A stretch of 64,000 nucleotides of DNA. Source: Xestospongia bergquistia. Lineage: Eukaryota; Porifera; Demospongiae; Haplosclerida; Petrosiidae. Below the pieces are notes generated by a model that made no database searches, was not told the origin of the DNA, and saw only the letters and a program-made list of their open reading frames with translations. The stretch covers positions 1,798,001 through 1,862,000 of the forward strand of contig OZ014422.1 in the NCBI GenBank assembly GCA_963965975.1, in the 5' to 3' direction. A program made the position numbers and the translations under genes. This document shows, in pieces, positions 42,398-64,000 of the stretch (positions are counted from its first letter, which is position 1; the number at the start of each line of letters is the position of its first letter).

Positions 42398-43593
42398 ATG
42401 GATGAACGTAAGTAACTAAGTAGTGATTCTTGTGAAGTACAATATTGTAGATTGTTATAATTGATGTCAGTATATAATAGACTTACTATACAATGTGGAC
42501 TGGCATCTCATCCACTAATCCATACCTGCACTAGCTAACTCTGTAACAGTAGCTGTACATTCCAATATAAGTCATGTAATATAGTTTATACATAATACTC
42601 TCTATAATTTTAGCTACTGTAGCAACACCTTTGGTTCTCTCTAGTTCAAGCTATCCTCTTCCTGCTCCTCCACAGCGCCCATTTCATCTCTCTTACTCGT
42701 CAGTCAGAGTTTCAAAGTCACTATCATCTGATGAGGTACATAGCAGAATAGTAGACATGTGGTTACAATAATTACCTATTACCTACACATGTAAGTTTTA
42801 TAGTAATAATTGCATGTAAATCAGTTTAATCTGTGCTGTTGGATAATACAGTAGCATAAGGAAGGCCACTAAAATAGGACAATATTATAACATTTCAGAA
42901 TATAATATTACATACCATACTATACTTGAATCTATATGTTGAGTGGGAATGTTTAATGTACATCCATATATACTACACTAGAATTTCCATTTACCTTAGC
43001 ACTGGTCAGTGAACCTAATAGTTATGTGTTTGTAGTAAGTTTACATTACAGGACTCAATGAATGCATGTAACACTGACAAAATCACTACATTTGATCCCT
43101 ATCCTATATATACAGATGACGTCAGTGGTTATAGAAGATAGCCCACAGATCATTGAGCCATCTTATTACCAGACAAGTATAATGAATGACAATTATTTGA
43201 TTTTCTCAATCATACTGACACTACTGAGCATCTTGTTTGGATGTATACCAGCTCTTTGTTGTTCCATACCTGCAATATTTTATGCAGCAAAAGTGAGTCA
43301 TTATTATACATAAAGTATCATTTAACAATTCACTCAAGTATTATATATTTCAATACCCTTATAAACACACTCCATCTCTTTATATTTTATAGGCACGAAG
43401 AGCATTTGCTTTAGGACACTATAACACAATGAGATCCACAGAGAAGATAGCCTTTGCTTTAAATATTTTTGTGTTGCTGTTTTGGATCATTTCGTTTACA
43501 ATAGTAGTCACAGTTACATATAGAGTGAAGTGTGGAGATGAGGGAATATACTGTAATACATCTCCTTATAAAATCAATCATCAAATTTATTAA
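42398..43593 (+). CDS. CD225/dispanin two-TM protein A
   Basis: Four exons (42398-42407, 42614-42735, 43116-43292, 43393-43593) give 169 aa. The N-terminus is Pro/Ser-rich and cytoplasmic (SSSYPLPAPPQRP). The CD225 core starts at NDNYLIFSIILTLLSILFGC, with the double-cysteine intramembrane motif LCCSIPAIFYAAK also found in IFITM3. A basic loop (ARRAFALGHYN) leads to TM2 (IFVLLFWIISFTIVVTVTY). The intron after AAK is phase 0, at the same place as in all other CD225 genes here, and the exon before it is 177 nt. The short C-tail has two Cys. IFITM/dispanins alter membrane rigidity and fusion; the role here is unknown. Confidence 0.8.
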
Positions 43594-44169
43594 TAACAAT
43601 TAAATGTGTAAAATATTTTATTTACATTACATATTATACTGCACTTTAGTGTTTGACTAGACTATATTTAATTGATGGATTGGATTGGATTTGTGTATAT
43701 AATCTTTATGGAATTGCTTCTTTCCTTTCAGCCCTACATATTTTCTCACTTGTTTTAATGTTATTGTAAGTATTAATAAACATATCTATAGTGTGATTCA
43801 ACCAACATAAGTATGCACATGTAGGTGTACATATACGTAAACTATTATATATACTACTTACCTACATCAACTGATCATTGATCTATATCAACACGCATAT
43901 CATATCAGAGAATGGTTTATTCCTTATAAGCAGTTATATGTTATCTGTTGCTGTAGTAGTATGCATAACACTACAAACTTACTTTACTACAAACGTAAAG
44001 GAAGTTTAGTCATAGTAAGCCCTGGTATTAATACTTGAAGTAAATTTATACGGCTTCCTTGGCAATATTCCAGGCCTCACCTGTCTCTAGTCTCTGTCAT
44101 TGTAGCGGCGAGATTTACGTTTTCTTCTAGTACCAATCAAACTATTGAAGTAATAGAAATATTATTACA

Positions 44170-44899
44170 ATGGCAGGTAACAGTTTCATTGTTATTAATA
44201 TCGTTTTAAATAATCTTACTATCTTTACTTTCAATGTGTTGATTCATCACCCTCAACTTATACAGCAATGGAGACGAGATTCATTACTCCCTACGAGCAA
44301 GATGTTTCTAGCCGTCAAATTGGCAGAGGATATCAGAAGGTCAGAATTTAATAGCGACATAGACATTGATACACTGAATGTTCAGAAATTCAATGTTTCT
44401 GTTTACATGTGTATATATTATGCTCTATAGCTACCCCAATATATCTATATAGAAATTTTATCTTCCCATTTACTCTATATAGACTATAATTGTAGATCAT
44501 GAACCTAAAGGAACAAAACGATCTGCCTCTCCAGATATCCCTTCAAAACCAGGAAATCGTCACCTCACCATTTCTGTCATAATGCTAATAATATCAGCCA
44601 TCTTCTGCAATCCTCTTGCCTTACTCTGTGCCATCCCAGCAGTCATCTTTTCTGTGAAGGTATATCCCATAATTACATTGTACATTGTCAATGTCTATAA
44701 AATCCCTCATTTTTAGGCACGATCAGCAGAAATGGAAGGAAAGAAAGAAGAAATGCAAGCCAATGATAAAACAGCATTTGGTTTTGCAATATTTAGTGTT
44801 ATCGGATGGATTATTAGCATTTGTGTGACTGGATTTGTTGTTTATCGAGACTTTTGTGGACCTACAGGTGCTCGATGTGAAACAAGAACGCATATATAA
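44170..44899 (+). CDS. CD225/dispanin two-TM protein B
   Basis: Four exons (44170-44176, 44266-44339, 44483-44659, 44717-44899) give 146 aa. The 7-nt first exon (ATG GCA G) matches the tiny first exons of its neighbours. TM1 follows RHLTISVIMLIISAIFCN with LCAIPAVIFSVK at the loop; after the phase-0 intron comes ARSAEMEGKKEEMQANDK, then TM2. The exon with TM1 is 177 nt. The acceptor at 44,482 was chosen over 44,496 because only it keeps the frame. Reading straight through the first intron is also open but would replace the family-type start. Confidence 0.72.
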
Positions 44900-45118
44900 T
44901 AATCTCCAAGGATACAATCTGACATAATATTCTCAGACACTTTTTAAACATCTATAGATTTCAAAATTATAACGCAGTTTCAAAATACTTATTTTTGATT
45001 GGTGGGTGGGGACTGTAACAAAATTAACAATATCAATAATATTCATACTCACCAAAAAGTTACTGGGTGGGGCTCATAGGGATAAATCCTCCTCTTTGTA
45101 CTGAATCCTGTTTCAACC

Positions 45119-46176
45119 ATGGCTAGTAAGTAAAATATAAATGTAACATCGTAAAATCACAATACAACGTACTTAGAGGTTAAGTTAAATACATTAAAAG
45201 CCCAATAAACCATGTTTCTAGCAACTTCATATTATAAATACTCCATTGCTGAACTTGGAGCAGCTGCCCCTTTTAGCTGCTGCATGCTATACATTGAATT
45301 GATTAACGAAGTGGCTACTATATACGTGTAATGCATAGGTGCAGATGATAATACTGTGATGATGGAAAACCCAGCCTACAATGTAGCTCCTGGACTACAA
45401 CACACCAATGTAAGACCCTAATAATGGAAATAATAAAACTAGTTGAGTCATTTTAAGTATTTTTTTAGAGATCCAATAAACGACCTCGCAGTACAATTGT
45501 ATTCAATCGAGAGCCATTAGGAAGTGACGATGCTGACAATCCCTATCCTGAGTTTGCGAAAACTGGGTCATCGTCAAAGTGGGATCATCACATCACACTT
45601 GCTGTTGTCTTGACTATTGTATCAGCACTTTGTCTAAATGTCTTTGCATTAGGTTGTGGAATTGCTGGTATATACTTTGCTATAGTGGTGAGGATAAGCA
45701 TATACCCAATTTTCCTTGCACTAAAGGCAATGATACTAGATTGTAAATGTATAAAGACATTATGATCTGGTAGGAAGTTCATAGACATGTACTTCATTGT
45801 ATGTGTGTGGCCAAAGCATTTCCTACTGGATCTCTTTAAGAGATTCAGTAAGAAATTCTTTGCCTGGCCCATTCATATATATACAATGAACTACATGTCT
45901 ATGAACTTTCTACCAGACCATATAATATTCTTTTGAGAGCTATTCATTCAAAATAACTTATCTAAGTAGTGTATGCAAAGTCTATTTATTTCTGTTCTCT
46001 TTTAGGCTCGTATTGCATCCAGGAATGATGACTATCATAAGAAATTAGAAAATGAACGAGTTTCTTTTGCATTTATTATTGTTTGTATAATGACATTAAT
46101 TGTAACTATTTGTATTATTGGATTTTCAGTGCATGAAGGTCTTTGTGGAAAGACTGGAGTGAGGTGTAGATTTTAA
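45119..46176 (+). CDS. CD225/dispanin two-TM protein C
   Basis: Four exons (45119-45125, 45339-45409, 45469-45687, 46006-46176) give 155 aa. The N-terminal region is polar with basic RSNKRPRST. TM1 (HITLAVVLTIVSALCLNVFA) is followed by CGIAGIYFAIV, a phase-0 intron, ARIASRNDDYHKK and TM2 (FAFIIVCIMTLIVTICIIGF). The C-tail HEGLCGKTGVRC shares its Cys pair with protein B (FCGPTGARC), so B and C are sister copies. The last intron holds a foldback element. Confidence 0.75.
45758..45928. mobile_element. foldback MITE-like element in an intron of gene C
   Basis: An inverted repeat of about 80 bp per arm: ATCTGGTAGGAAGTTCATAG on the left matches the reverse complement of the right arm (CTATGAACTTTCTACCAGAC) and continues through GACATGTA.TTCATTGTAT and the CTACTGGATCTC / TTACTGAATCTC region near the centre. 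There is no coding capacity. Confidence 0.65.
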
Positions 46177-46347
46177 AATTATCATTTTTGACACTGCTGT
46201 TAATTAACTATTACTTAATAAAAATTAATATATTAAATTCATTAAAACCACACCTTTATTTATAACTGATACAAAATTGAAGGTATGTCTCCATTTCATA
46301 CATTTATATTTAATTCTTTTGCTAACGCTTTGTTTATAGATTCAGTC

Positions 46348-46926
46348 ATGAGCAACCAAGCACCATATAGACCAAGATTTTCCCTTCATTATCAACATCA
46401 TTCATCTGAGTATTCTGGACCACCTCCACCCCAATATCCCCCATATCCTTCTGATTATCCACCATTTCCTCTTCCCCCTGATGTGTCTCCACTTCGTCCT
46501 CATTATCCAGCTACTTATCATCACTCTAGACCTCAAATACATGATCGTAAAACAGATAGCAGACCACATCAAGCACAAGGTCGTTCAAAACGTCGATATC
46601 CTTATCATAGAGGAAGGGGAGCTAAAAGAGAGCGTCACCATCATGACAGTGAATATGATGAACGTTTGTATTCACAATCTATTTTAGAGGATCCTTGGAG
46701 AGGTCTTTTATCAGAAGAAGAAGATAAAGCACATAGGGATAGAATTGCTAGACGATTTCAACCAAAGTTAGCACCTTCAGTAGCAACAACAATTGTAGAA
46801 GCATCAGTCAATGACTCTGAGACAAATGATGATATAATAATACATGAAGACTCAAACACAGTGAACAATTCACAAAAGATTTCTTTGGGATCAGATAGTT
46901 CTAATATGGAACAAATCAATGAATGA
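46348..46926 (+). CDS. MPLKIP/TTDN1-like Pro-rich protein
   Basis: 192 aa from ATG 46,348, which follows a probable 3' splice site (GTTTATAG at 46,338), so the 5' UTR is likely spliced from near 46,280. Residues 1-70 are Pro/Tyr/His-rich (GPPPPQYPPYPSDYPPFP). A basic region follows (RSKRRYPYHRGRGAKRER). Then comes the short conserved motif LYSQSILEDPWRGL. A Tyr-x-x-Ser-(M/I)-LEDPW-x-GL motif is the hallmark of MPLKIP, the M-phase PLK1-interacting protein mutated in non-photosensitive trichothiodystrophy. The rest is low-complexity and acidic. The call rests on that one motif plus overall composition. Confidence 0.5.
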   Translation: MSNQAPYRPRFSLHYQHHSSEYSGPPPPQYPPYPSDYPPFPLPPDVSPLRPHYPATYHHSRPQIHDRKTDSRPHQAQGRSKRRYPYHRGRGAKRERHHHDSEYDERLYSQSILEDPWRGLLSEEEDKAHRDRIARRFQPKLAPSVATTIVEASVNDSETNDDIIIHEDSNTVNNSQKISLGSDSSNMEQINE

Positions 46927-46929
46927 ATG

Positions 46930-48470
46930 CTTTCAGAATCAATATACTTCTCTCTGTGAAAACTAAGATATTATCTTATTTTTATGCCTTAATTTATGTA
47001 TATAATAACAATGAAACTTTAACCACAATGCTCCACCTACATAATGACAAAAGGATTGTATCATTTCATATTTTCACTTAATTTAAAGAAATGATGTTAT
47101 TACTGACTGTAGTATTTGAAATCTAATAGCACTATCTTCTATCTGCTGCATAGTGCAATAGCAATGACACAACACTAGCTGTCCTACTTACATTCCCTTC
47201 ACCAGATGTAAATAATTCACCATATCTTCCTGCAATGATGTGATGTTGTAGCACAATTATAAGTCATTAACAATGCTTCTTCATTAATTAGACACCTTGA
47301 ATTATCAAGGTCATCAAATATCTATCTACTAGGAAAAAATGATGACATTGTTTCTCTATATAATGTCTTAATAGTAGTAGGAGCCATATTGTTTAAGTTT
47401 GACTTGATACTGTTTGATTGGGATGAAGCTTTGATCACCACTACAGTTGTTAATGTGTTGCATGAATTGTTTTGATGATATTACAATAGTAATTATGGAC
47501 AAGAATTAATAACATTCATCATCATTTAAACAGCTGCATCTTTATCTTTTGTTGCTGTATTACAGAGTCTTCCAACTAATGAAACTGTGTTTAAATCATT
47601 TAAATCATTAAATCATTTAATAATCATCAATCCCTTGAAACCATATTTATGGCAACAGTCAAAATGAAGAAAAACCATATCATACTATATGCACAGATCA
47701 TGATAATTTAAACAAAGTAATAACATTAACATTGATTTTATTGATGACATTATTTTTTTCCTTTGAAAGTTTAATTATATTGATATATGTAATTTGAATA
47801 GAATAATAAAAATTATTACACTATATCATTATCATTTTGTAAACAGTCAATTCCATAGGACAAAAGTAATCCAAACAGTAGTATATTTATTTTCAGTTTG
47901 CTATATGTTATCTGTTAAACCACAACTATATTGGTTAAATCAGCCAATCAATGAATTATACATCATCAAAGGTCAATAACCAGTATAATTCTATAAAAAA
48001 GTGCGTGTCACATGTTTGTGACTAAATTATTGTGCAATTATATATATATATAATTAGAAGATTGTGTTGTCATGGATCTTTCAATGGATTTACCATACAT
48101 AATATTATTAAAATATAATTGTGTGTAGGGTTTTTATATATATATTAATTTAGTTCTGAACTGAAGCTTTAAATCCACATTAATTGCTTTCAGTTTTCAA
48201 GCATTTTTAGGTATTTCTGTAGATAAGGATAGCGTTAATCTTTGCAATATATTCTGGAAAGTATTTGCCATCTATTATAGCTAGACTACTTGACAATGCA
48301 ACATTACAGAACAGGTTAGCCTGGTCAGGCTGCCACATGCCCAAATCATATATAGTTGTAATTTAACAAGTTCAATAGAAAATTTGGATACATGTAACTT
48401 TATAACAGATTATATAATAATATTATATATGCCTGTTGAGCAAAAAATCAATTAAATTAATGATTTAATA
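46930..48470. other. intergenic, upstream half of the D1 duplication unit
   Basis: AT-rich non-coding DNA. From about 47,305 it matches 50,486 onward closely (for example GGAGCCATATTGTTTAAGTT in both), so it is the 5' part of a duplicated block. A 61-codon open frame at 47,794 also persists in the copy, but without domain or splice evidence it is not called. Confidence 0.55.
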
Positions 48471-48481
48471 ACGCATGCGCA
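48471..48481. promoter_or_regulatory. NRF1-like palindrome, promoter of D1
   Basis: ACGCATGCGCA, 74 bp before ATG 48,554. It is a near-perfect copy of the palindromic NRF1 site and is embedded in a conserved promoter block shared with D2. Confidence 0.55.
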
Positions 48482-48553
48482 GTTGAACTTTGAAGTGGAC
48501 GGAGAGAGACTTGCTGTGCCAATAGCTTGCAGTAATTGACATTGTTTACGGAT

Positions 48554-50291
48554 ATGGAAGGTAAATCTACGTGTTTACTAAGTGTGGATCAGTGTTACAG
48601 AACTCAAGTTGATCTATAGGAGTTTCCCCAGATATACTTTCCTATGCGTCTGGTCATGTGAGACTAAAACACGGTATACATGAGAGACTACCAGACAGAA
48701 TTTGCATATTATTTTGACAACAAGTGACGTCAATAAAATGTGTCCTGTGTTGAGGTCATATACAGACTTACCAAAGTAGCAGTAATCAGATTGCAATCAA
48801 TGATCATCCCAGACATGCATTTTCTATCGCTAATACACTAAATCTGTCATAAGTAAAATAAGAAATGAGTTCTGTTTTTAGTTTACAAACATCCTCAAAG
48901 TGACAGAATACAATTATAAATGTCCTTAGTGTCTAGATCTGAAAGAGTCTTTGTGATCTTTAATCAAAATCATGTTTTGCGAATAGATACCACTTTGTCA
49001 ACAAAATTCAATGGTTACATGCATGATTATTAAGCCTTTTTAGATAATATATGCATCTTTAAGCTTTCATATGTAATCGTATAAGGTATATAATTAAGTT
49101 AGTTGTTAATGGAACCATATAAAATATGTAATATAGCTTAAGCTTTGCTATTAGACTTCCTGTTATCATTACTGATGAGTCAATTTTAAGTCTTTATTTC
49201 ATGTTATTTTTCTCATCATGCACAAGCAACATTAAATAAGCTAGCATTCTTTCCCTTTCTTTACTTAGGTACCAGTACCAGTTATCCACCTCAAGTACGT
49301 TATAAGTTTCATACATTATAAATGTTACACCTACACATTGCAAGTGTACCTACCTACTACTACATGTACTAATAGATTATTGGACAAGTAATTGTAAATA
49401 TTAGATTTGTATACAGTATTAGTACATGTGTGTGAGTATCCCTCTGCTTATATAGCAAGGGTATTATATACCACAAGGTTATTTACCACAACAAGGTTAT
49501 CTACCACAACAAGGTTATATTCCACAACAAGGTTATGTTCCACAACAAGGATACCCTCTCCAGGCAGGATACAAAGGTAGAAAAAGTTAACTATTGTATC
49601 ATTGAGTTAACATATACTTTTTTGATAGATATTCTTCCTCCTTATTATCCACAACAGGCCTATCCTCCAGCTGCTCAGGTTGCTCCAACTGCTACTCAAC
49701 AGTCTGTGAGTTGTCTTTTTACATAATAAATGAAACTTACTTGTTCTTATTGCCTATAGACTTCTAATGTAGTTGTTGTATCATCACAACCAACTCCAGT
49801 GGTGTCACAGACTGTTATTCGTCCTACTGGAGACCACTACTTGACATTGTCCATTGTGTTGACATTCATTTGCTTTTTCTGTGGGACTTGGTACTCACTG
49901 TTTTGTACTATTCCAGCTATTATCTTTGCTATAAGTGTAAGTATTATTTTCAAAGACTATATAACTTATATTAATGATGTAATTTCTATATATATAGGCT
50001 CGTGATGCTGAGGCACGAGGTGATTTGGAAGGAGCTCAATCTAAAGCTCGTGTTGCTTTGATCCTCAATATTGTGTCCATTATATGGTGGGTCATTGCAC
50101 TCGTCGTTATTGTCGTAGCTGCATCAGTGTCAGCTACCACAGCAGATAACCGCTATTACCGCTATTATAATTATTATTGCTACTACTATTATCGTTACGC
50201 TACCAGCTCCTACTATTCTACTTATTCTTATTATTATTATTATTATTATTATTACTCTTACACTGGCACCTATTGCTACTATTACAAATAG
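48554..50291 (+). CDS. CD225/IFITM-like protein D1 with PQQGY repeats and poly-Tyr tail
   Basis: Six exons (48554-48560, 49269-49294, 49456-49576, 49629-49705, 49760-49936, 49998-50291) give 233 aa. Start MEGTSTSYPPQ. Exon 3 encodes about five repeats of (L/I/V)PQQGY. Exon 4 gives PPYYPQQAYPPAAQVAP. The CD225 core is TGDHYLTLSIVLTFICFFCG, LFCTIPAIIFAIS, then after a phase-0 intron ARDAEARGDLEGAQSKARVA and TM2 (SIIWWVIALVVIVVAASVSA). RD..GD..GAQ..A mirrors the conserved intramembrane loop of vertebrate IFITMs. The last ~45 residues are mostly tyrosine, encoded by TAT/TAC runs. AATAAA-type signals occur near 50,440. Cytoplasmic PQQGY regions of this type often mediate self-association; the function here is unknown. 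Confidence 0.82.
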
Positions 50292-52069
50292 ACTGCCAGT
50301 TTTTTTTCAGTATGAAACTCCATGTACTTTATAATTCTTGATACTTACGTTATATCATTCTCCATGTGAAACAAGTGTTGCCTTTATTCAAAAGATTGTT
50401 GTAAGCTGGTTATCATTTTTATGTCTCTCCAATTAATAATAAAATAAAATTATTATATTTTTAAACAAAATTTGAATCATATCAAGGTCATCAAATATCT
50501 ATTATATACACCTACTAGGAAAAAATGATGATATTGTTTCTCAATATAATGCCTTGATTGTAGTAGGAGCCATATTGTTTAAGTTTGACTTGATACTGTT
50601 TGATTGGGATAAAGCTTTGATCATCACTGCAGTTGTTAATGTATTATATGAATTGTTTTGATGATATTACAATAGTAATGGACAAGAATTAATAACAATG
50701 ATGTATTATATCGTAACATGATTATAAGTTATTGACAATGCCTCTTCCTTAATTAGAGATGTCATTGAAGTCATTAAATATCTATTATACATATACCCTT
50801 TGTAGAGATAAGAGTATGGATAGCTGTCATTGCTTTTACTCTCGTGTTAATTTTGGTACAATATTATGACTACATCCTGGAGAGTACACCATATCTTTTA
50901 CACATCTGAGCAACACAGCACAAAACTAAATGTTGTTTGATTCAACTATATATATATACCTGCTGTTACAACACCTTAATTGAGTAGAGCTAGCAAAAGT
51001 AATTGCTATAATATATGATATGTGTTATCAATCCACACTAAATAAACTTTTAATAGACTACACTTGTAAAAAGAGCGTTGCCATAATATCTATGACATCA
51101 TTGTAGTCATGGACAGTATGGTCAACAAAATCATATAAGCTTTGGAGGAATTATGTTAAATTCAGTTCTGTTATCTCCAAGATATTGTGACTTTCCTACA
51201 ACATTCATCAGCATTTAAACAGCTGTATCTTTTGTGTTGCTGTAGTACAGAGTCTTCCAATTAATGAAACTGTGTTTAAGTCATTTAATAATCATCAATC
51301 CCTTGAAACTATATTTCTGGTAACAGTCAAAATGAAGAAAAACCATATCATACTATATCCACAGATCATGATAATTTTAAAAAATTACTAACATTGATTT
51401 TATTGATGATAATAATTTGTTTCCTTTGAAAGTTAATAATATTAATATATGTAATTCAATAGAATAATAATTATCATTACACTATATAATTATCATTTTG
51501 TAAACATTCAATTCCATAGGACAAAAGTAATCCAAACAGTAGTATATTTATTTTCAGTTTGCTATATGTTATCTGTTAAACCACAACTATATTGGTTAAA
51601 TCAGCCAAACAATGAATTATACATCATCAAAGGTCAATAACCAGTGTAATCCTATAAAAAAGTGTGTGTCACATGTTTGTGACTAAATTATTGTGCAATT
51701 ATATATATATATATATTAGAAGATTGTGTTGTCATGGATCTTTCAATGGATTTACTATATATTATATTAATTTAGTTCTGAACTGAAAATTTAAATCCAC
51801 ATTAATTGCTTTCAGTTTTCAAGCATTTTTGATATTTCTGTACATAAGGATAGTGTTAGTCTTTGCAATATATTTTGGAAAGTATTTGCCATCTAGCTGG
51901 ACTACTGACAACAGAACCATTTAGCCTGGTCAGGCTGCCACATGCCCAAATTATATATAGTTGTAATTCAACAAGTTCAATAGCAAAATTGGATATATAT
52001 TAACTTTATAACAGACTATATATATATGTGCCTGTTGAGCAAAAAAATCAATTAAATCAATGAATCTAA

Positions 52070-52082
52070 TAACGCATGCGCA
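52070..52082. promoter_or_regulatory. NRF1-like palindrome, promoter of D2
   Basis: AACGCATGCGCAG, 73 bp before the ATG, in a block almost identical to the D1 promoter (GGACGGAGAGAGACTTGCTG follows). Confidence 0.55.
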
Positions 52083-52154
52083 GTTGAACTTTGAAGTGGA
52101 CGGAGAGAGACTTGCTGTGCCAATAGCTTGCAGTAATTGACATTGTTTACGAAT

Positions 52155-53549
52155 ATGGAAGGTAAATCTACGTGTTTACTAAGTGTCAAATGACAAAATA
52201 CAATAATGTCCTTAGTGTCTGAAAGACTGTTTATGATCTTTAATCTAAATCATGTTTTGCGAATAGATACCACTTTGTCAACAAAATTCAATGGTTACAT
52301 GCATGATTAAGCCTTTTTAGATAATATATGCATCTTTATGCTTTCAATATGGGATTATGTAATCGTCTAAGGTATGCAATTATTATGTTAGTTGCTAATG
52401 GAACCATATGCTATGTAATATAACTTAAGCTTTGCTGTTAGACTTCATGTTATTTACTTCATGTTATTTTTCTCATCATGCACAAACACCATCAAGTAAG
52501 CTAGCATTCTTTCCCTTTCTTTACTTAGGTACCAGTACCAGTTATCCACCTCAAGTACGCTATAAGTTTTATACATTATAAATGTTACACCTACACATTG
52601 CAAGCGTACCTACCTACTACTACATGTACTAGTAGATTATTGGACAAGTAATTGTAAATATTAGATTTGTATACAATATTAGTACATGTGCATGAGTATC
52701 CCTCTGCTTATATAGCAAGGGTATTATATACCACAACAAGGTTATCTACCACAGCAAGGTTATATTCCACAACAAGGTTATGTTCCACAACAAGGATACC
52801 CTCTCCAGGCAGGATATAAAGGTAGAAAAAGTTAACTATTGTATCATTGAGTTAACATATACTTTTTTGATAGATATTCCTCCTCCTTATTATCCACAAC
52901 AGGCATATATTCCAGCTGCTCAGGTTGCTCCAACTGCTACTCAACAGTCTGTGAGTTGTCTTTTTACATAATAGATGAGAGATCACTTGTTCTTATTGCC
53001 TATAGACTTCTAATGTAGTTGTTGTATCATCACAACCAACTCCAGTGGTATCACAGACTGTTATTCGTCCTACTGGGGACCACTACTTGACATTGTCCAT
53101 TGTGTTGACATTCATTTGCTTTTTCTGTGGGACTTGGTACTCACTGTTCTGTACCATTCCAGCTATTATCTTTGCTATAAGTGTAAGTATGATTTTCAAA
53201 GACTATATAGCTTAAATTAATGATGTAATTTCTATATATATAGGCTCGTGATGCTGAGGCACGAGGTGATTTGGAAGGAGCTCAATCTAAAGCTCGTGTT
53301 GCTTTGATCCTTAATATTGTGTCCATTATATGGTGGGTCATTGCACTCGTCGTTATTGTCATAGCTGCATCGGTGTCAGCTGCAACAGCAAGCAATAGCT
53401 ATTACCGCTATTATAATTATTATAATTATTATAGTTATTCTTGCTACTACTATTATCGTTACGCTACCAGCTCTTACTATTATTATTACTCTGGTTATTA
53501 TTACTATTATTACTCTTACACTGACAGCTATTGCTACTATTACAAATAG
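52155..53549 (+). CDS. CD225/IFITM-like protein D2 with PQQGY repeats and poly-Tyr tail
   Basis: Six exons (52155-52161, 52529-52554, 52716-52821, 52874-52950, 53006-53182, 53244-53549) give 232 aa. It is nearly identical to D1 but has one PQQGY repeat fewer in exon 3 and a rearranged tyrosine tail. The tail changed by gain and loss of TAT/TAC codons (ATSSYYYYYSGYYYYYYS), while the CD225 core is almost unchanged. It is the product of the same recent duplication. Confidence 0.82.
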
Positions 53550-54440
53550 ACTAACTTTGCGGCCATTTTTTTTCAGAAACTCCATGTACTTTGTAATTCT
53601 TGATACTTATATTATATCATTCTCCGTGTGAAATAAGTGTTGCCTTTATTCAAAAGATTGTTGTAAGCTGGTTATTGTTTTTATGTATCTAAAATTAATT
53701 ATAAAATAAAATCAAATATTTCTGCCTTTATTCAAAAAATTGTTGTAAGCTCTTTATCATTTTTATGTATCTAAAATTAATAATAAAATAAAATTATAAT
53801 GTTTCTGAAACAATTTGAAAAGTTGCTGTACATACATGTCTATCTGGAACAATAATATCAAGCATGGGTGGAGTCAGTATGTTCAACTATGATATCACTA
53901 ATCTTAATACATGGATACCGTGTCAGAGACATTAGATTACATGTAGTTATGTATATACATGTGTAAGATTAATGTTATTATAACCGTACATATTGATACT
54001 ATATGTTTAATGTTACAATGATTACCTTTATACTACTGTAACACATCAGTTCATATAACCATGTGTTGTTGTCCGAAATATACACATTGGAATATAATTA
54101 CTGTCTTGTGCCCTTTATACACATCAGCAAATTCCATTTTAAACATAATAGGTGCCTACAATGTGGATATGAATGTATTAACATTACCAGCTGTCAGGTC
54201 GAACTGCTTTCATTTTTACACCCTTATTTGTTGATACAATATATGGACCATGTCTTTATGGATTTGCACTCATCTGAAAGTACGTACAAAGTCAATTGTC
54301 TTTGACATATATCATGTAAAATTAATATTTGCTTTGTAGAACATTTTGGTAATCAATAAACACCGACAGAATTCACTTATGAGTCCACCAGAGATCATTT
54401 ACAATTAAATTGTAGCTACTGCTACTACTCAACTACTGAT

Positions 54441-54450
54441 GCGCATGCGC
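54441..54450. promoter_or_regulatory. NRF1 palindrome, promoter of D3
   Basis: A perfect GCGCATGCGC, 110 bp before ATG 54,560. The downstream GACGGAGAGAGA and GCAGTAATTGAC blocks are shared with D1 and D2. Confidence 0.6.
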
Positions 54451-54559
54451 ACTTGTATCTGCTTTGTCATTGATTCTTTGAGGTGCTGGCAAAGAGACGG
54501 AGAGAGATTTACAAGACCAAGCTACCATTATTTTGCAGTAATTGACGTTGATTGCGATT

Positions 54560-56421
54560 ATGGAAGGTAAATCTATACAATTACTAATGTAATATAAATT
54601 ACTTAACGTTGGCTGCTAGCAGTGTGAAGCAGTTTTCACAAGTGATAAAAATCAACACTGTATGGTTCGTTGTTTGTCTAGTCACACAAACCTAAAATAA
54701 TCTCATATAATTCTAAACTTATATAAATAAATCGTGGTTAGGGCGTATAAAAATGATGAGACTGGTCTTGTGAGCCAGACTGAACTTGCTTCCCTTTTCG
54801 ATATCAAATTATGTCTATAGAGTGTGCCTGTATTGAGGTCATGTTGAGACTCAGCAAAGACTTACATGGTCAGATGTTTGAGGGGATGGGAACGTCTGGG
54901 GAAACTACTGTAGATCAAGTTTGGCGCTGCAAAAAATTATGCAGAGCCAATCAGATTGTCTTGAGGCTAGTTTGAATCACATGACATGCTTACCAACTAT
55001 ATTTGCATCAACAAGAGAAGCATTACACACTACAATGAGTAACACTCATGATACTTCACACATAGTGATCTTCCTTTACTCATATAAATGGCTTTGTGGT
55101 TGACACACTCCCTCTTTCAGATGACTTTACTATTTCATCAACAAAATCCAAACATGAGGAAATAATTACATCTGTTACATTTTCAATATGGGATTACATA
55201 TATAGTCATCTAGGATATTCAATTATATGGAATGCATATGTTATCTTCACAACTTTGTGTCTCCTACCTGTTAATTCCACCATACTTTGTTCAATTTACA
55301 AACCATAGTTATTTTAAAGAATATAAATACTATAATATTGACTTCCTGTTAACATACTAAGTCATTTTAACTGTTATTTTAACACTATAAGTAAGGACTT
55401 TTTCTCTTTGTTTACATAGGTACTGGTTATCCACCTCAGGTATTGCTAGTTACATATAACATAAATGTTACACCTACACATTGCAAACATACTTACCTAC
55501 TACTACATACACTAGTAGATTATTAGACAAGTAATTGTACATTAGATTTGTATACAGTACTACATGTAGTAGATCTATAGGTAATCCTCTGTTGTATAGC
55601 AAGGGTATTATTACCCACCACAAGGCCAGCAGGCTGCTTATCCTCCACAACAAGGATATCCTCTGCAACAAGGATACCCTCCACAACAAGGATATCCTCC
55701 ACAACAAGGATATCTTCCACAACAAGGATATCCTCCTCAGGAAGGATATAAAGGTAGAAAAGTTAACTATTGTATCATGTTATATATACTTTTCAATAGA
55801 TGTTCCTCCTCCTTATTATCCACAGCAGGCCTATCCTCCAGGTGCTCAGGTTGCTCCAGCTGCTACTCAACAATCTGTGAGTTATCTTTTTACGTAATAA
55901 ATGAGAGATCACTTGTTCTTATTGTCTATAGACTTCTAATGTAGTTGTTGTAGCATCACAACCAACTCCAGTGGTATCACAGACTGTTATTCGTCCCACT
56001 GGAGACCACTACTTGACATTGTCTATTGTGTTGACATTCCTTTGCTTTTTCTGTGGGACTTGGTACTCACTGTTCTGTACCATTCCAGCTATTATCTTTG
56101 CTATAAGTGTAAGTATTATTTTCAAAGAGTATATAGCTTAAATTAATGATGTAATTTTTATATATATAGGCTCGTGATGCTGAGGCACGAGGTGATTTGG
56201 AAGGAGCTCAATCTAAAGCTCGTGTTGCTTTGATCCTCAATATTGTGTCCATTGTGTGGTGGATCATTGCGTTCATCATTATTGTCATAGCTATCTCAGT
56301 ATCAGCTGCAACATCAAGCAATTGCTACTACTATTATAGTTACACCACTGGCTCTTATTATTCTTATTACTCTGGTTATTATTATTATACTTACTCTTAC
56401 ACTAATAGATATTGCTATTAG
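54560..56421 (+). CDS. CD225/IFITM-like protein D3 with PQQGY repeats and Tyr-rich tail
   Basis: Six exons (54560-54566, 55420-55439, 55600-55753, 55800-55876, 55932-56108, 56170-56421) give 228 aa. Exon 3 carries about six repeats, mainly YPPQQG, plus QGQQAA. The CD225 core matches D1/D2 (GDHYLTLSIVLTFLCFFCG; GDLEGAQSKARVAL), and TM2 has FIIIVIAISVSAATSSN. The tail is shorter and mixed Tyr/Ser/Thr. The intronless stretch around exon 3 is the most repeat-rich of the family. Confidence 0.82.
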
Positions 56422-57539
56422 ACTAGCTTTGCAGCCAGTGCTCAAAGACTTTTTTAAATATGAAACTTCCATTTTTTTGGTACTTTAATTAATTTTTGTT
56501 ACTTATTGTTATTGTGTTACGTGGGAAAAAAGTGTTGTCTTTATTGAAAAAAAATTGAAAAGTGCTATTGTAAAGTGATGGTGTATTTTCTTGGTGATTA
56601 TAACTACCATCAAATTTGTCATGTTGTCTGACTGTGCATATATTTGACAGTATATGTTATTATTGCCTTGTATCTTCTTTGTCACAAGCAATCTATACTA
56701 TTCTCAAGTAACAGTGCTTTAATAATGATATAGCAACTCAAATAACCACATTATATTGCTACATGTTCACAATTAGTTAAAGTTTGGAAGTTAAAAGGTG
56801 ACAAAACTTCATATGCACTTCCCATTAAAAAATTAAAGTTAGAGTTCTTAAAGTAAAGTTTTTATATTTATGGTTACAAAGTACCAATAGGCATATACTG
56901 CCAAAATGTCTGACACGTAGATTTACATATGGAAAATACATTGAAGCAATTTACAAAATCGAAGCAACATGAACAGACAATTGAATTAGCACTACAAAGT
57001 TATTTGTATGGGTACAAGAATTACTATTATGAGTACAAGTAACAATACTAGAATATTTGTATCAGTACACACACAACTGTAGGATATTTTGTATGGGACA
57101 TATCATATACCTGGGAATGCAACATATTCTATAAAAGTGCCAAGTGCAGAGTTATCATAGACTATTCTGTAGGAGGTACCATTTTTTGGGTGGAGGGAGC
57201 TCAAGGAATGTGACACCAGCTCCTCTTAGTGCTGTCATTAATTATGTCAAAAGTAGCTAGGTAGACATTATGATGGATTAGTTTTTATGTCCAGCAATAC
57301 AATTTTAGCATTAGTGATATAATAATAGATTGTTTTTAAAATTATTGATTTGTGATTCTTTAATTATAACATTAACAGTTTACTTGTTCAAAAAGTTAAC
57401 ACACTTTAATATGAAATATATATCTGCTATGTTACAGTAGTTATATACCTAACTATTAACCTCACTATAATTATATTAATGCCAAGTGAAGAGAGTATTA
57501 ATACTCAGCACGTTCCTACGTTACTATTATAAAGTACAA

Positions 57540-57755
57540 AGATCATATATAGTGTAATGATTACTAGGTTTGGGAAAACTCCTAGAGCATTACAACAATG
57601 CAAACACAATTAGATCATAGGTTATATAAATAGTGCAATCATCTAGTAGGTTCAATTGGGAACACTACTAGAGCATTACTGCAAACACAACTAGATCATT
57701 TGTCATATGTACATACATAGTGTAATGATCTAATAATAGGTTTGGTAATAACATA
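57540..57755. repeat. three imperfect ~85-bp tandem units
   Basis: Units share ATATAGTGTAATGAT, CTAGAGCATTAC and GCAAACACAA.TAGATCAT, seen from 57,547, 57,625 and 57,715. They are non-coding and lie just before the decayed D-type relic. Confidence 0.55.
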
Positions 57756-57789
57756 GTTGTAACAGTAATTATGAACAAGGATATGTCCA

Positions 57790-58025
57790 CATGACAAGCT
57801 TGTTTATCCTCCTATACACCACAGCAAGGATAACGTCCTCAAAAGTAATTACGTATCTCAAAAAAATTATAAATCTTCCCTTACTTTATTATTCACCTCC
57901 CATATCCCTCCAACTAGTATTCCTTCCAGCTACCCAGACTTTTCCAACTATGTACCATCACAGCAGCAGTCTATGAGTTGTCCCATTTATATAACACAAG
58001 AGAAATCACTTGTTATTAGATAGTG
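57790..58025 (+). pseudogene. decayed D-type CD225 gene fragment
   Basis: The order CCACAGCAAGGATA (exon-3-like), then TTATTATTCACCTCCC (like exon 4 CTTATTATCAACCTCCC), then CAGCAGCAGTCTATGAGTTG and AGAGAAATCACTTG parallels D4 exons 3-4 and the following intron. The donor is mutated (GTGAGT/GTAAGT to ATGAGT), the frame is broken and no CD225 exon follows. It is a relic of a former family copy between D3 and D4. Confidence 0.55.
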
Positions 58026-59198
58026 GTGAATACTTGTTAATATTAATAATACTCAGTAGGTATTTAGTATCTATCAATGTTCATCATTATCTACTGAGTA
58101 TCCATGAGATGGACATTAATAGTTACCTACACATTTCAGTGGATTGAGACTAAGTATTAAGTTAACATGTGGGATCAACTTTATTTCAAAGTTCCAACGT
58201 GCAAGCCATTGAATGAAGTAGAATCTATAGAAAGGACTCCATCATATGCAGTACTAGTACGTGTATTACAAAACAAATTTGACTAGCAATGATGAAACTG
58301 TAAAATTACAAGACTATAGTTAAATTAATACTTTAAGGAAGAAGAATGTTCATTGATGGTTTCTGTTATGAGATAAAGTCATATATTTTGCCTCGTCAGC
58401 ACATTCATGACAGTTGTTTATGGTACATCTGTTTCAAAATATAGCTAACCCAATTGCCATATGCACACCTGAACAATGACTGATTTATAATATTATATGG
58501 GTAAATACCAGTGTAATTATAATAATACGAGTTACCTGTAAAGCAATTGGCATAACAGAATATGATCATGAGGTCATGAGCCTGAATGTCATCCACGTAA
58601 TAAGGCATTCAAAGGTGAATGGGTTAAACTTTTTACTGATCAATATACATACTAATTTATTTACTAATTATACATATTGATCTATATACATATTTATTAA
58701 TATTATGGATGGATATTATTAATACTTGCTACATACTAATTATAAGTATCTATATATATATATATCAATATTCAGGAGGAGTATTTTCATTATTATCTAT
58801 ATGTCTAGCTAGCTCTGTTCATGGTAATACAAGTAACTTAAATATGACTGAATTGAGACTTGTACTATAATGACTAGTACCTCCTAGCTTTAATTAAAAT
58901 TGAATTAGTCAACAAACAATACTGACACCAATAATTTGAACTGTATGAAATGTATGAGGAGAAACAAGTTAAAGGCTGATCATATTATGAACGCACAGAC
59001 TATATTACTGTGTTAATATTGCATGGTTTAACAAAGCCAATGATATAGAAATAGCATTCCAATTTAGAATGATAACACGGGAATATACTACTCCGCTTTT
59101 AATGATTTGTCATAATACGCGTATTTGTGCCGTGTATGTCCGTTTATGTTCGCATACTAGCAACGAACCGTAGTCGAGTCGCACGGATTCTTATCGAG

Positions 59199-60781
59199 AT
59201 GGAAGGTGAGTTAAGAGTTAGTTAAATACCAAACTATTCTAAACTTATACTATTCTAAAATCGATATATATATAATTAGTTAGTTTATTGTAAATTACAA
59301 AGTTTGGCAGCTATAGTTACAATTGTGTGCATCATAGATCACTGAAATATCATGTACATGTTAGTGTACCACTTATAATTTTGACACTTAATTCCCAAAG
59401 CAGATAGAATCCTGAAATAGCCTTAACATGTTAAACAGTGTGGATTATTCATAAAATCAAACTTTGTGAATGGCATGGTATACGATACACCACAAATAAT
59501 GTTATCACAATCTGTTTTTAAATTTGCCTCGATTCACTTGTGCTTTGGTAAACGTGAGTGTAGTATCAAATGTTCTTCTTTGTCCTTTCTTTAGGTTACA
59601 GTGGCTATCCACCTCAGGTAATACTGAATCACATATTCAATATGCTGTTGTTTACAGAGAAGATCTACAATTAACATTCCACTGATGCAACATTATACCA
59701 TATATAATGTTGTATTGTTATCTTACTGAGCCAACCCAATCCTTATACAGCTAGTCCACTTAATTGTTATGATACATCTGCCATATAAAATGAAGGAAGT
59801 AATGTACATATCTCTTAATGATTTAATGAATATTTAGTTATTTAAGATTCTATATTACAAGTCTCATATGAAATCTATCATGTATACATTGATTAATGAA
59901 ATAATGGTTATAACAATTGCAAGAACGCTATTGACTAACAGTACTTATACTAATATATACCCTCCTAAAGATTGCTATTATACAATAGTCTATTATACTA
60001 ATTATGTCTATATCCATATAGCAAGGGTATTACCCACCACAACAAGGGTATCCACCACAACAAGGGTATCCACCACAACAAGGATATCCACCACAACAAG
60101 GATATCCACCCCAGCAAGGATACCCTCCCCAGGAAGGATACAAAGGTAGAAGAAGTTAACTATTATATCGTTTGAGTAATTTATACTTTTTCAATAGATG
60201 TTCCTCCTCCTTATTATCAACCTCCCCAACAGCAGCCTTATCCTCAAGGTGCCCCAGTTGATCCAACTGTTCAGCAACAGTCTGTAAGTTGTCTTTTTAT
60301 AAACAAAAGAGAACTCACTTGTTTTCTAGTCCACTAATGTAGTTGTTGTATCAGCACAACCAACTCCAGTGGTGTCACAGACTGTTATTCGTCCTACTGG
60401 AGACCACTACTTGACATTGTCCATTGTGTTGACATTCCTTTGCTTTTTCTGTGGGACTTGGTACTCACTGTTCTGTACTATTCCAGCTATTATCTTTGCT
60501 ATAAGTGTAAGTATGATTTTCAAAGACTATATAGTTCATAGAATGATATAATTTCTATACATGTATAGGCTCGTGATGCTGAGGCACGAGGTGATTTGGA
60601 AGGAGCTCAATCTAAAGCTCGTATTGCTTTGATCCTCAATATTGTGTCCATTGTGTGGTGGGTCATTGCATTCATCATTATTGTCATAGCCATCTCAGTA
60701 TCAGCTGCAGCAGCAAACAATTGTAGATACTATTCCCGTTCTTACCGTAATTACTATTATACTGACAGTTATAATTGTTAG
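59199..60781 (+). CDS. CD225/IFITM-like protein D4 with PPQQGY repeats
   Basis: Six exons (59199-59205, 59595-59617, 60022-60145, 60198-60283, 60330-60506, 60569-60781) give 209 aa. Start MEGYSGYPPQ. Exon 3 holds six very regular YPPQQG repeats, exon 4 is DVPPPYYQPPQQQPYPQG. The CD225 core is as in D3 (GDLEGAQSKARIAL; TM2 SIVWWVIAFIIIVIAISVSA). The tail is short (NCRYYSRSYRNYYYTDSYNC), without the long Tyr run. Its promoter lacks the GCGCATGCGC site of the other D genes, suggesting different control. Confidence 0.8.
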
Positions 60782-62333
60782 TATATGAACTTATTGATCA
60801 TAATTAAAGCTTCAATTCAAGTTCTTTCAGTCAGTAGTTTCTCAGTATACATTCAAAGCATAATTTTAATTAATTGTCAGAAACAAGTGACTTTTTTAAT
60901 AAATAATAATTATTGATAATCTGCCTTATTGTTGTTAAGCTACTTAGACTATAGACCATCAATAAACATCATTACATACAACTAAGCTTAGACTAGCAAA
61001 GAGATTATTCATCTTATGTAAGTACCAATTTATTTTTCTGTATATTTGTTCAATGCTATTGTCACACTGTAATGTGAGATTATTCTCTTGATCTTTCGTT
61101 CATGTACATATGCAATAAAATTGTTTCAAGTAAATATTATAATTATATTTACATATTATCAACAATTACTGCTGTAAACATCACTCGCTTCCCTATTAAA
61201 AGAAAGCAACATATACCTTACCCTTCTATATGTTACTACAGTGCAACATAATAGAAATAGAAAAGAAATAGAAAATAAAATAAAAAGGAAATAAACTACA
61301 TTGTATACATATACATATTAAGGTAGCTATTGTCTAATATTAATAAGATATTAATATCATAACTCTGACAGTAACTAAATAACTTGCTATTAGTATATTA
61401 ACAAGATGAATAGAGTGGTGTTTATATTAAACTTCTCAGTATCTCATCATTTATATAATTATACAATGACCATACATTAGTTAATAACCAATTCATTTTT
61501 TATAGTTATATACCAGTCAGTATAATTAAATAGGAATAATAATAAGAACTGTAGCTATAATAACAATCATTGCAAAATAAAATTGTGGAGTCACTTTCAG
61601 TTGTAGCTCAGTGCTATATCATGATACTAAGATACCTTCTGAGGAATACATGTGAATTATTACTCACCACACACATTTCCAGAATTTGAAATCAACCTTC
61701 TTATGATTAGATGATGACCAAATGTAACAATGCTCACTTTTAAATTATTTAGTAAATATAATTTTATATATTTCTTCATAGACATATATGCCTATGAAGA
61801 AATATATATAATTCTATATTTACTAAGTAAAGTGAACATTATTACCTTTAGTCATCATCTAATTATAACCTATGTAGGTTGAAGCTATATACTGAATATG
61901 AAAATAATTGTGGTTAATCATTGTGATTGTACATGTATGGGTATTACCCCATAAGAAAACAAGGTCTAAAGAGAAAATTTCAAAGTTTATTACAAGTATC
62001 CTTGAAATGCAGTATTGCTGAATGAAACACTAGACTCAATAGCTAGTAAATTATTCACCTCCTCAGGACTTTAGTCAATAGTACAATTACTATGTACTTA
62101 TCACGTCTTTGGTAGCTAATTATAAGTCGATACTATATTGCATGATCAATAATTTCCATAAATGGACTGATATGTTGAACAGTCTACCTGATTTTGGGTT
62201 TGTTGCAAGTTAATAAGCTCAATAGTATTAACTTATAATAATGTATTTCTTTCTGTACTATTGTCTAACACATGCTTCACATGCTATCACAACTGACGGT
62301 ACTACAGCTTCACCTGTGACGTTTTCTGATCAG
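60782..62333. other. intergenic D4-D5
   Basis: D4 3' flank (AATAAATAATAAT near 60,900), the foldback MITE and AT-rich sequence. No gene seen. Confidence 0.5.
61690..61883. mobile_element. foldback MITE between D4 and D5
   Basis: A long palindrome: TTAGATGATGACC on the left and GTCATCATCTAAT on the right, extending through TAGTAAATATA / TATATTTACTA and the near-perfect centre TTTCTTCATAG...CTATGAAGAAA. No TSD was established. Confidence 0.7.
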
Positions 62334-62343
62334 GCGCATGCGC
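62334..62343. promoter_or_regulatory. NRF1 palindrome, promoter of D5
   Basis: A perfect GCGCATGCGC, 88 bp before ATG 62,431. Confidence 0.58.
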
Positions 62344-62430
62344 AAATTGAGCACTTTGCCACAGTATCGAAGACTCGAGACTAGCAGGTACTTGCTGTAA
62401 TCAATCACCTCAGTCAATTGATTTACTACT

Positions 62431-63903
62431 ATGGAAGGTAAATTGTTCACTTAGTTTATGGCTGACTTCTTTATATTTTGTAACTGCACACGAGGTTGCA
62501 CACAAAGCGCACATGACCAACCCCTTCAGATCTAGAAGCAGCATAGATATTAGAGTCTATGGAATCACACATAGAAACGATGTTGTAATCAATTTTAGAT
62601 ATAGACACTGTACTACCGTATTGCTCGGACGCTGTGCTTTGCTATACCAGGCCAGAGTGCATATCAATTGAATACACAGGATATACACTGAACAAAAATG
62701 CTTGATTCTATAAGAAAATGTTTACTCCTAAACTTTCAAATATTATCATAAATTTGCTACTGTAGTTTGTCTATTTTGTAGATTAGGTTTATATATTTCA
62801 CACGCAAAAAAAACAATCACATTCTAAAATTAACAAAAAAATTCATGAGTTTCACTATAGTGAGCCTGTGAATCCAACATATATATTATTAAATGCCTAT
62901 ATTCAATTTAATTTACAAGCTCTGCGAAAATTATAATGCATGAGAATATCTATAATTATCCATTAATATTGTTCATACGAATATATATTAATTTATCCCA
63001 CTGTTTTCTTAAATTTGCTCTGTTATACAAATTAAGTGATGTTGCCTAAAGAATAGTTTGGCCACAAACAGGAGGCCATAGTCACTATTGAGCTATTCTT
63101 TCAGTCACACACCTAACATGTCATATCTCACAACAATACCTTTTGTTGAGACAGAAGAGTTGTTTTTTCAGTTTAGAACTCCCATCAAATCTGAAGCTTT
63201 TAAATACCCACTAAATGCAGCATTAATATTAAGAGGCTATATATAATGTGTGCAGAACATTTATTCATATGGAGCTTTTATGTTAGCAACCATTCATTTT
63301 CATGGAGGGATGCTGGAGGGAGTGCTTAAACTGCAATATTTTTGACCCTTTAAGTTTATGTATACTCAAAAGGTCAAAAATATCAAAGCTTAGCATACTA
63401 AACTTTGATTGAGTGTCTTTTTTACAAAATAACTCTGATTAGAGAATCCATTATGTCTTTTTATTACTTACTGGTGGTGTCCATATTATTTGTAACAGAT
63501 GCTCGTTTTGTAATTACACTTTTTTCTTTGTTAACAAGACAAAAAGTGTCATTACAATATGATCGGTCAATAACATGAAATTTAGGGTGTGTTATATACA
63601 CTGTTATATATGATTAGATACTTAATTATAATTTAGTTATATATTAAATTTTATGGAAATGTCCATATTAATTTCACCTCAGGGCTTCTAATTTTTAATA
63701 CAAACTTTGTGGCTTTAGTCATATGTCATCAGTACCTTAGAGTACTATAACATTACATAGTTTGCATACTGATAACATGGACACCTGTCTTTGTTATTTT
63801 AAATTTACTCATAACGCACAGGCTAGATACAAATGAATATACTTCCTTTATTTCCTTTTACTTTCACTTGTAGGTGCTGGTTATCCACCTCAGGTACAGC
63901 TAG
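62431..63903 (+). CDS. CD225/IFITM-like gene D5, 5' part only
   Basis: First exon ATG GAA G at 62,431-62,437 with donor GTAAAT, and second exon 63,884-63,903 encoding GAGYPPQ with donor GTACAG. These match D1-D4 in phase and sequence. The repeat and CD225 exons must lie beyond the right edge. Confidence 0.7.
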
Positions 63904-64000
63904 TTTTTATAACAAGCACACTATTCACTGACAGTAGTAGTACTTGTACTAATTTACTCTGCTAATACACACTTAGATTGTTATTTTAATAGTCATGATA

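Follow-up and report, generated by a model that had tools for sequence, protein, structure and literature searches.

We describe a tandem array of eight genes (c1 to c8) that resemble one another and encode small membrane proteins with human relatives among the IFITM and PRRT proteins; c1 to c4 lie whole within the window, i.e., the 64,000-nt stretch of DNA analysed here. Judged by their domain, their loop motifs and the intron placed between their membrane segments, these genes are dispanins, and it is to this class, not specifically to the IFITMs, that their sequences assign them. Together with three short relatives (g1 to g3), the array is one of several such clusters in the genome, which probably belongs to a demosponge, and its proteins, carrying an AP-2/NEDD4-type motif pair, would most likely oligomerise and regulate membrane fusion or trafficking; we consider this explanation as a whole, proposed function included, moderately probable. 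The array departs from known dispanins in its Tyr-rich C-tails and its copy number.

According to our splicing scripts, c1 to c4 share a common plan of six exons, separated by GT..AG introns and open in frame once spliced, in the order 7-nt first exon (M-E-G), YPPQ exon, PPQQGY repeat exon, PPxY linker, TM1 and TM2 (Table 1). Six-exon models of this kind, with open frames and all splice sites kept, were obtained for the eight repeat genes, so that the tandem arrangement and exon layout proposed in an earlier, sequence-only reading of this DNA are upheld. The tiny first exon of that reading is also found, as ATGGAAG followed by GT, upstream of 8/8 array genes; ATGGAAGGTR has six matches in the window, against 0.26 expected, and five of the six are at gene-model positions. 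The repeat, linker, TM1 and TM2 exons of c5 lie beyond the window end (C12:1862025-1862834), and c6 to c8 are three further copies downstream of it, reaching C12:1876233. The earlier count of at least eight CD225 genes in 21.6 kb, five of them joining repeats to CD225, holds in part: among eight candidates (g1-g3, c1-c5), six have a CD225 domain inside the window that passes PF04505, g3 fails and the CD225 exons of c5 are outside; four repeat-CD225 genes are complete inside the window, and the fifth (c5) has only exons 1 and 2 there. A repeat exon was sought for g1 and not found, the model covering TM1 and TM2 exons only. As a plain CD225 gene g3 was rejected, the PF04505 match being absent from its joined TM1-like and TM2-like exons. 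An Rfam search of the window gave 0 matches.

Table 1. Genes and gene remnants of the dispanin array within the window
Feature	Position	Strand	Exons	Evidence
c1	48554..50291	+	48554-48560, 49269-49294, 49456-49576 (repeats), 49629-49705 (linker), 49760-49936 (TM1), 49998-50291 (TM2 + Tyr tail)	233 aa; PF04505 E 7.7e-12; splicing scripts
c2	52155..53549	+	52155-52161, 52529-52554, 52716-52821, 52874-52950, 53006-53182, 53244-53549	232 aa; PF04505 E 1.2e-11; splicing scripts
c3	54560..56421	+	54560-54566, 55420-55439, 55600-55753, 55800-55876, 55932-56108, 56170-56421	228 aa; PF04505 E 8.3e-13; splicing scripts
c4	59199..60781	+	59199-59205, 59595-59617, 60022-60145, 60198-60283, 60330-60506, 60569-60781	209 aa; PF04505 E 1.5e-12; splicing scripts
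c5, 5' part	62431..64000	+	62431-62437 (exon 1), 63874-63893 (exon 2)	PF04505 E 1.2e-12 (full protein)
g1, short CD225 gene	43125..43593	+	TM1 ~43125-43292, TM2 43393-43593 with stop	tblastn; PF04505 28.3 bits (cut-off 27.1)
g2, short CD225 gene	44483..44899	+	TM1, TM2 (44717-44899 with stop)	tblastn; PF04505 33.0 bits; 5' end outside model
g3, divergent paralogue	45532..46176	+	TM1-like ~45532-45687, TM2-like 46006-46176 with stop	tblastn, exon A E 2e-7, exon B E 1.1
Decayed repeat + linker remnant	57760..57970	+		Stop in repeat frame; tblastn + sequence

The CD225 identity, claimed before from the letters alone, was borne out by HMM search of the predicted proteins: PF04505 scores above its curated cut-off (27.1 bits) in all seven full array proteins scanned of the eight (c7 left out), at 44.9-49.6 bits, and g1 and g2 also pass. 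DUF4190 matches the array proteins too, below its own cut-off, and the best match in a PDB sequence search was an unrelated plant protein (E 0.021). Besides the domain, the array shows the two hydrophobic segments, the loop splice site, the G-D and A-x6-A loop motifs and the Asp before helix 1 of dispanins. Two common traits are absent, i.e., the helix-2 Gly and a C-terminus of fewer than ten residues, neither of which belongs to the domain cut-off. At the double Cys of helix 1, given as C-C or C-F-C in dispanins, all eight proteins show C-F-F-C and a third Cys within the TM1 exon. A splice site within the loop that joins the helices is described as conserved in eukaryotic dispanins, and the family is proposed to trace to the common ancestor of animals and choanoflagellates (PMC3282796). 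The label "IFITM-like" is right as to CD225 membership and too narrow otherwise, because the family is that of the dispanins, and the same 2012 survey placed its invertebrate members closer to DSPC/DSPD (PRRT1-type) than to the IFITMs; vertebrate DSPA (IFITM) genes are given two exons there, against six here (PMC3282796). Bacterial contamination or recent transfer is not supported, since introns are present and a close prokaryote homologue was not found: a scan of prokaryote contigs with one peptide pattern gave 60 pattern matches, 0 of them confirmed by tblastn, and tblastn against plasmid sequences gave no match.

The array proteins have 204-233 residues, and begin with a Pro/Gln/Tyr/Gly-rich part of 94-109 residues with few charges. 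By motif count, c1 to c8 carry 5, 5, 6, 6, 6, 4, 4 and 6 repeat units, and the earlier estimate of about 4 to 6 was therefore right. All 19 PQ[QEAP]GY peptides in the six frames of the window fall inside c1-c4; chance low complexity was ruled out as their source, each of 20 dinucleotide shuffles containing 0, and a Pfam scan of three array proteins at E up to 1 gave no repeat-family match. The following features are common to all eight: YKD[VI] beside PP[PY]Y, two hydrophobic regions (Kyte-Doolittle), a charged loop with GDLEG between them, A-x6-A and GDHYL in every aligned row, intron 5 between the membrane segments, after AIS and before ARDAEARGD, and a TM2 stretch without Gly. The Tyr-rich C-tail, thought at first to be limited to some copies, is likewise present in 8/8, with 20-55 residues, the shortest being those of c8 and c4.

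Set beside known systems, the array resembles dispanins of DSPC-DSPD type such as PRRT1, with which it shares CD225, the two hydrophobic segments, the loop motifs, the Asp before helix 1, the inter-helix intron and a long N-part, and to which it adds the PPQQGY repeat exon, the 7-nt first exon and the Tyr-rich tails, with a helix 2 lacking Gly. IFITM3 is alike in its CD225, its Cys in the first membrane segment, its GDxxG motif and the PPxY and Yxx-hydrophobic motifs of its N-part; these motifs, present in 8/8 array proteins as sequence motifs only, adjoin here (YKDVPPPYY), whereas in IFITM3 they are described as sharing one Tyr. PRRT2 is alike in its long N-part, its CD225 and the GxxxG in its loop, and it has a SNARE-related role in neurons. 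Neither IFITM3 nor PRRT2 is known to have such repeats or such a tail. PPQGY/XYPPX repeats are found in squid rhodopsin tails, annexin A7 and LITAF-type N-ends, as low-complexity Pro/Gln/Gly/Tyr sequence adjacent to a lipid-binding or membrane region, in proteins whose domains are unrelated to CD225.

Pairwise NG86 values differ between the parts of the gene. In the TM1 exon, dN is lower than dS in 27/27 non-identical array pairs; the TM2 exon diverges faster, and over its first 141 nt dN exceeds dS in three of the 27 pairs, all involving c8. In a test of the synonymous share, which omitted c7, assumed a transition weight and used pairs that are not independent, the repeat exon shows 177 synonymous against 208 other differences, i.e., 46%, compared with about 28% expected in the absence of constraint; the first 141 nt of TM2 are weakly constrained (21% against 29%), and neither the linker (30% against 29%) nor the tail (16% against 25%) gives a sign of constraint. 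Mosaic runs link c1 and c6 (26 sites) and c2 and c6 (16 sites), with 0/2000 permutations each, and the former covers the last part of the TM1 exon and almost the whole of intron 5. As far as sequence tells, the copies are thus mosaics with a homogenised TM1-intron-loop block, and the variable repeat number and the ongoing change proposed in the sequence-only reading are supported. Unequal crossing-over and gene conversion would change the array, keeping the TM1-intron-loop block uniform and leaving the repeats, the second helix, the tails and the flanks to diverge; the PPQQGY repeats, variable in length, would add multivalency. That most copies arose by tandem duplication and are instead silent or decaying, devoid of a role of their own, we regard as very improbable: tblastn finds orphan TM2-exon fragments 3' of c5, the remnant at 57.8 kb has no CD225 exon found downstream of it, and c6 and c7 are near-identical, but the open frames and splice sites of 8/8 repeat genes and the dN values of the TM1 exon argue against decay.

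The tails bear on another reading, in which the CD225 part anchors a cross-linked outer Tyr-rich tail at the cell surface while the PPQQGY part condenses inside, making the proteins structural or adhesive. The tail recurs in 23/36 fetched relatives having a TM2 exon, where dispanin C-termini are described as shorter than ten residues (PMC3282796). Its length varies, however, its Tyr codons show no sign of retention (46/250, 18%, against 23% expected), and it may derive from TAY-rich simple repeats, TTA and TATTATAAT simple repeats being listed in the tail region; we find this reading improbable.

For the trafficking function that we prefer, the N-part is predicted to be disordered and cytosolic, YKD[VI] to serve as a Yxx-hydrophobic sorting signal and PPxY as a site for a WW/NEDD4-type ligase, and because of these two putative motifs, surface level and endosomal delivery may be controlled as in IFITM3. 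PRRT1 (SynDIG4) is described as binding AP-2 through a Yxx-hydrophobic signal, and CD225 proteins as binding SNAREs; GxxxG is reported to drive oligomers of IFITM3 and PRRT2 (PMC7665892), and the loop GDLEG of 8/8 array proteins fits this motif. Palmitoylated Cys and GxxxG-driven oligomers could stiffen the membrane or engage SNAREs, tuning fusion and vesicle traffic, with the Tyr tail facing the lumen or the outside. Several observations weigh against this model, i.e., the second helix without its conserved Gly, the C-F-F-C form of the double Cys, the weakly constrained start of TM2, the linker and tail without sign of constraint, and a PPxY that is not general in the family.

Genome-wide, at least 98 places similar to the TM1 exon are listed, for a total of about 100, and 83 of the 98 counted fall in five clusters; the largest count per species in the 2012 survey of 36 eukaryotes was 17, in mouse (PMC3282796). 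Among 37 TM1 exons fetched from elsewhere in the genome, 16 have repeat units upstream and 20 a PPxY. The repeat-bearing genes comprise 10/16 in one C1 cluster, 4/15 in the other, and the C4 and C7 genes, with 0/3 in C3 and 0/1 at C12:1.08 Mb; PPxY is found in 3/15 of one C1 cluster and 0/3 in C3, whose three genes are likewise devoid of repeats, of the loop motif and of a tail. A layout unique to the c1-c8 locus was thus rejected. The claim of a new modular architecture is accordingly narrowed: the layout recurs, dispanins with extra 5' exons are known from Nematostella, with 3-6 exons, and from Monosiga, with 7 (PMC3282796), and PPxY with Yxx-hydrophobic from IFITM3, but within the searches made we found no description of the repeat/CD225 layout combined with long Tyr-rich tails and near 100 copies. 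In the same genome, a silicatein-type query led to cathepsin-like genes; among the 13 loci looked at (L044-L056), Ser stands at the active-site Cys place in L052, which is a silicatein mark, Cys in eight (L044, L046-L050, L053, L055), and no active-site motif was seen in four (L045, L051, L054, L056). We assign the genome, with moderate confidence, to a probable demosponge.

A further reading concerns defence. The array could be a repertoire of antiviral or antimicrobial effectors whose copies block enveloped-virus fusion or microbial uptake, copy number and repeat changes reflecting an arms race. The large tandem expansion and the faster divergence of TM2 point this way, as do the antiviral IFITMs of the same family, mycobacterial relatives described as restricting influenza virus in human cells, and a PRRT1-annotated CD225 gene tabulated among the symbiont-dependent genes of Hydra (PMC6019070). 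We nevertheless judge it unlikely: TM1 is conserved among copies, not diversifying, PRRT-type members have non-immune roles, and an interferon system would not be expected in this lineage. In a related and rather improbable scenario, about 100 CD225 proteins would be kept as a membrane-barrier repertoire in an early-branching animal without interferon, with a uniform TM1-loop, varying repeat number, second helix and outer Tyr tail, the copies forming mixed oligomers, each suited to its own membranes, microbes or symbionts.

In conclusion, the dispanin family is known, and the literature searched gave no description of an expansion with this size and layout. Because the YKD[VI]-PP[PY]Y pair and GDLEG are present here, these sequences suggest that IFITM3-type sorting, turnover and oligomer control may predate vertebrates. 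A probable sponge genome with about 100 CD225 places would be a natural test bed for the pre-interferon roles of these proteins, whether in fusion control, in defence, in symbiosis or in surface structure.

We ran tblastn with the five proposed layout parts on the window and the next 20 kb (84 kb), and assembled by script the models of eight tandem genes (c1-c8), each of which has six exons, i.e., a 7-nt first exon (ATGGAAG), a second of 20-26 nt ending in YPPQ or YPPQQ, a repeat exon, a linker exon, a TM1 exon of 177 nt, and finally a TM2 exon continuing into the tail and stop. GT..AG is found at all 40 introns, and the spliced frame is open in the eight genes (proteins of 204-233 residues). 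ATGGAAGGTR occurs six times in the window for 0.26 expected, five of them upstream of c1-c5, and of the 10 exon-1 motif matches on the + strand over the full 84 kb, 8 precede the eight array genes. All 19 PQ[QEAP]GY peptides of the window lie within c1-c4, while each of 20 shuffles gave none. The array consists of real, intact genes with consistent splice sites.

The sequence-only reading had placed at least eight CD225 genes in 21.6 kb, five with repeats. Six genes carry the domain inside the window (c1-c4 and the short neighbours g1 and g2, above the PF04505 cut-off); a third neighbour, g3, does not reach it, and the c5 domain lies beyond the window end, leaving four complete repeat genes and exons 1-2 of c5. 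Counting g3 and c5-c8, there are 11 members, clear or probable, along the stretch. The expected four to six repeat units were indeed found (5, 5, 6, 6, 6, 4, 4 and 6 from c1 to c8).

Features of the 146-Mb, 21-contig source assembly (the window is C12:1798001-1862000; TM1-exon places are those among the matches listed)
Feature	Location	Strand	Remarks
Minisatellite	window 17968-19527		big; 41-bp units, higher-order repeats of 108 and 149 bp; + strand C-rich (GC skew -0.52 over 18001-20000)
Tandem repeat	window 31083-31503		61 bp, seven copies, 95% matches
Lysine methyltransferase-type gene	window 41422-42363	-	beside array; PF10294, E 2e-19
Unrelated 192-residue frame	window 46348-46926	+	between g3 and c1; LEDPW motif; MPLKIP match below threshold (E 0.007)
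PF04505 inside window	C12:1847995, 1851241, 1854167, 1858566
PF04505 past window end	C12:1862571, 1866583, 1871576, 1875880
Two orphan CD225 TM2-exon fragments	C12:1863152-1863669 (L009)		3' of c5; one with in-frame stops
c6, c7	C12:1865500-1866987, 1870481-1871980 (L009)		near-identical duplicates
c1-c8 array	C12		8 TM1-exon places
Cluster	C12:1.07-1.09 Mb		9 TM1-exon places
Cluster	C1:1.63-1.91 Mb		23 TM1-exon places
Cluster	C1:3.53-3.68 Mb		23 TM1-exon places
Two gene pairs	C1:3606/3620 kb, 3635/3645 kb		core identical within each pair
Cluster	C3:2.33-2.42 Mb		20 TM1-exon places
Scattered			15 TM1-exon places
CD225 gene	C7:6838.3-6839.3 kb (L020)		far longer repeat stretch, PQGQSYPPQQGY type
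Tandem cathepsin-L/silicatein-like cluster	C9:1502.8-1522.7 kb, 3184-3186.7 kb		one exon (L052) with Ser in place of active-site Cys

By their sequence, the array genes are dispanins. Compared with the description in PMC3282796, they share with known dispanins the domain, the loop splice site, G-D, A-x6-A and the Asp before helix 1, and differ in a helix 2 without Gly, a long tail and perhaps C-F-F-C. The cluster had been called IFITM-like and its architecture new; the CD225 placement stands, but with six exons against two in IFITM genes, the array genes are not demonstrably IFITMs. Several 5' exons are already known in Nematostella and Monosiga dispanins (PMC3282796). The family is known; what is new here is the copy number, along with the repeat exon and the Tyr-rich tails. 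Pro/Tyr/Gln-rich N-ends also occur on bacterial CD225 proteins.

All eight genes encode YKD[VI], PP[PY]Y and GDLEG, as well as three Cys within the TM1 exon, and the N-part (94-109 residues) has only 4-6 charged residues. In published work, the IFITM3 PPxY recruits NEDD4, its Tyr also belonging to a Yxx-hydrophobic endocytic motif (PMC4532365); GxxxG drives IFITM3 and PRRT2 oligomers (PMC7665892); CD225 proteins bind SNAREs (PMC11730294); PRRT1 binds AP-2 via YVPV (PMC11798926); and the favoured IFITM3 topology has a cytosolic N-end and a luminal C-end (PMC13194588). The array proteins may likewise cycle to endosomes, form oligomers and tune fusion or traffic, the repeats would act as an arm that is flexible and multivalent, and the Tyr tail would lie on the outside or luminal side. 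An antiviral use is possible.

Among array pairs, the TM1 exon shows dN of 0-0.047 vs dS of 0.046-0.177, and the TM2 exon, over its first 141 nt, 0.019-0.162 vs 0.058-0.311, with dN above dS in 3 of 27 pairs, each involving c8. Synonymous shares of differences (pairwise counts, hence not independent, with an assumed transition weight) are, observed vs expected, 46 vs 28% for the repeat exon, 46 vs 30% for TM1, 30 vs 29% for the linker, 21 vs 29% for the TM2 part, 16 vs 25% for the tail and 18 vs 23% for its Tyr codons. Hence, repeats and TM1 look constrained, with no such sign in the linker, the second helix or the tail.

The copies are also mosaics. Between c1 and c6, identity is 36% in the upstream flanks, 52% in intron 2, 95% in the TM1 exon and 98% in intron 5, and 50-column blocks give 62, 84, 57, then 92-100 (TM1 exon, intron 5, loop), then 72 and 70. 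In c3, intron 2 resembles c1/c2 (78%), the TM2 exon c4 (97%) and the post-stop region c5 (85%). The longest runs common to c1/c6 and c2/c6 were equalled in none of 2000 permutations, and 10 of 21 pairs reached p < 0.05 (c7 left out). Constraint on intron 5 could also keep it identical, but is less likely because the c8 intron is only 60-68% identical to the other copies; gene conversion is the simplest reading. Finally, c6 equals c7 in the repeat exon, the TM1 exon and the TM2 exon as far as nt 141; these two and the identical C1 pairs reflect either recent duplication or uncollapsed haplotypes.

There were 181 matches to the c3 protein in the genome, and at least 98 places among those listed span the TM1 exon wholly or in large part, a count that may include pseudogenes and excludes PF04505 places such as C12:0.09-0.10 Mb. 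In 32 stretches round PF04505 matches (L012-L043), we found 37 TM1 exons (E 1e-6). Upstream of these, three or more Pro/Gln/Tyr units occur in 16 cases vs 1 of 400 random stretches from the same loci, and PPxY in 20 vs 6 of 400. Among the 36 relatives with a TM2 exon, 23 have a Tyr-rich tail and 24 keep G[DN]..[GA]. These features are unevenly spread between clusters: repeats, PPxY and Tyr tails reach 10, 15 and 16 of 16 at C1:3.5-3.7 Mb and 4, 3 and 7 of 15 at C1:1.6-1.9 Mb, and the three C3 genes have none of these, nor G[DN]..[GA]. A tree of 43 core sequences, four having been excluded because of stops, short length or lack of a second exon, groups by cluster, with 7 label changes for a minimum of 6 (0 of 200 shuffles as low), good support being limited to 9 of 37 inner branches. 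This genome-wide CD225 expansion in a probable sponge is of greater interest than the architecture alone.
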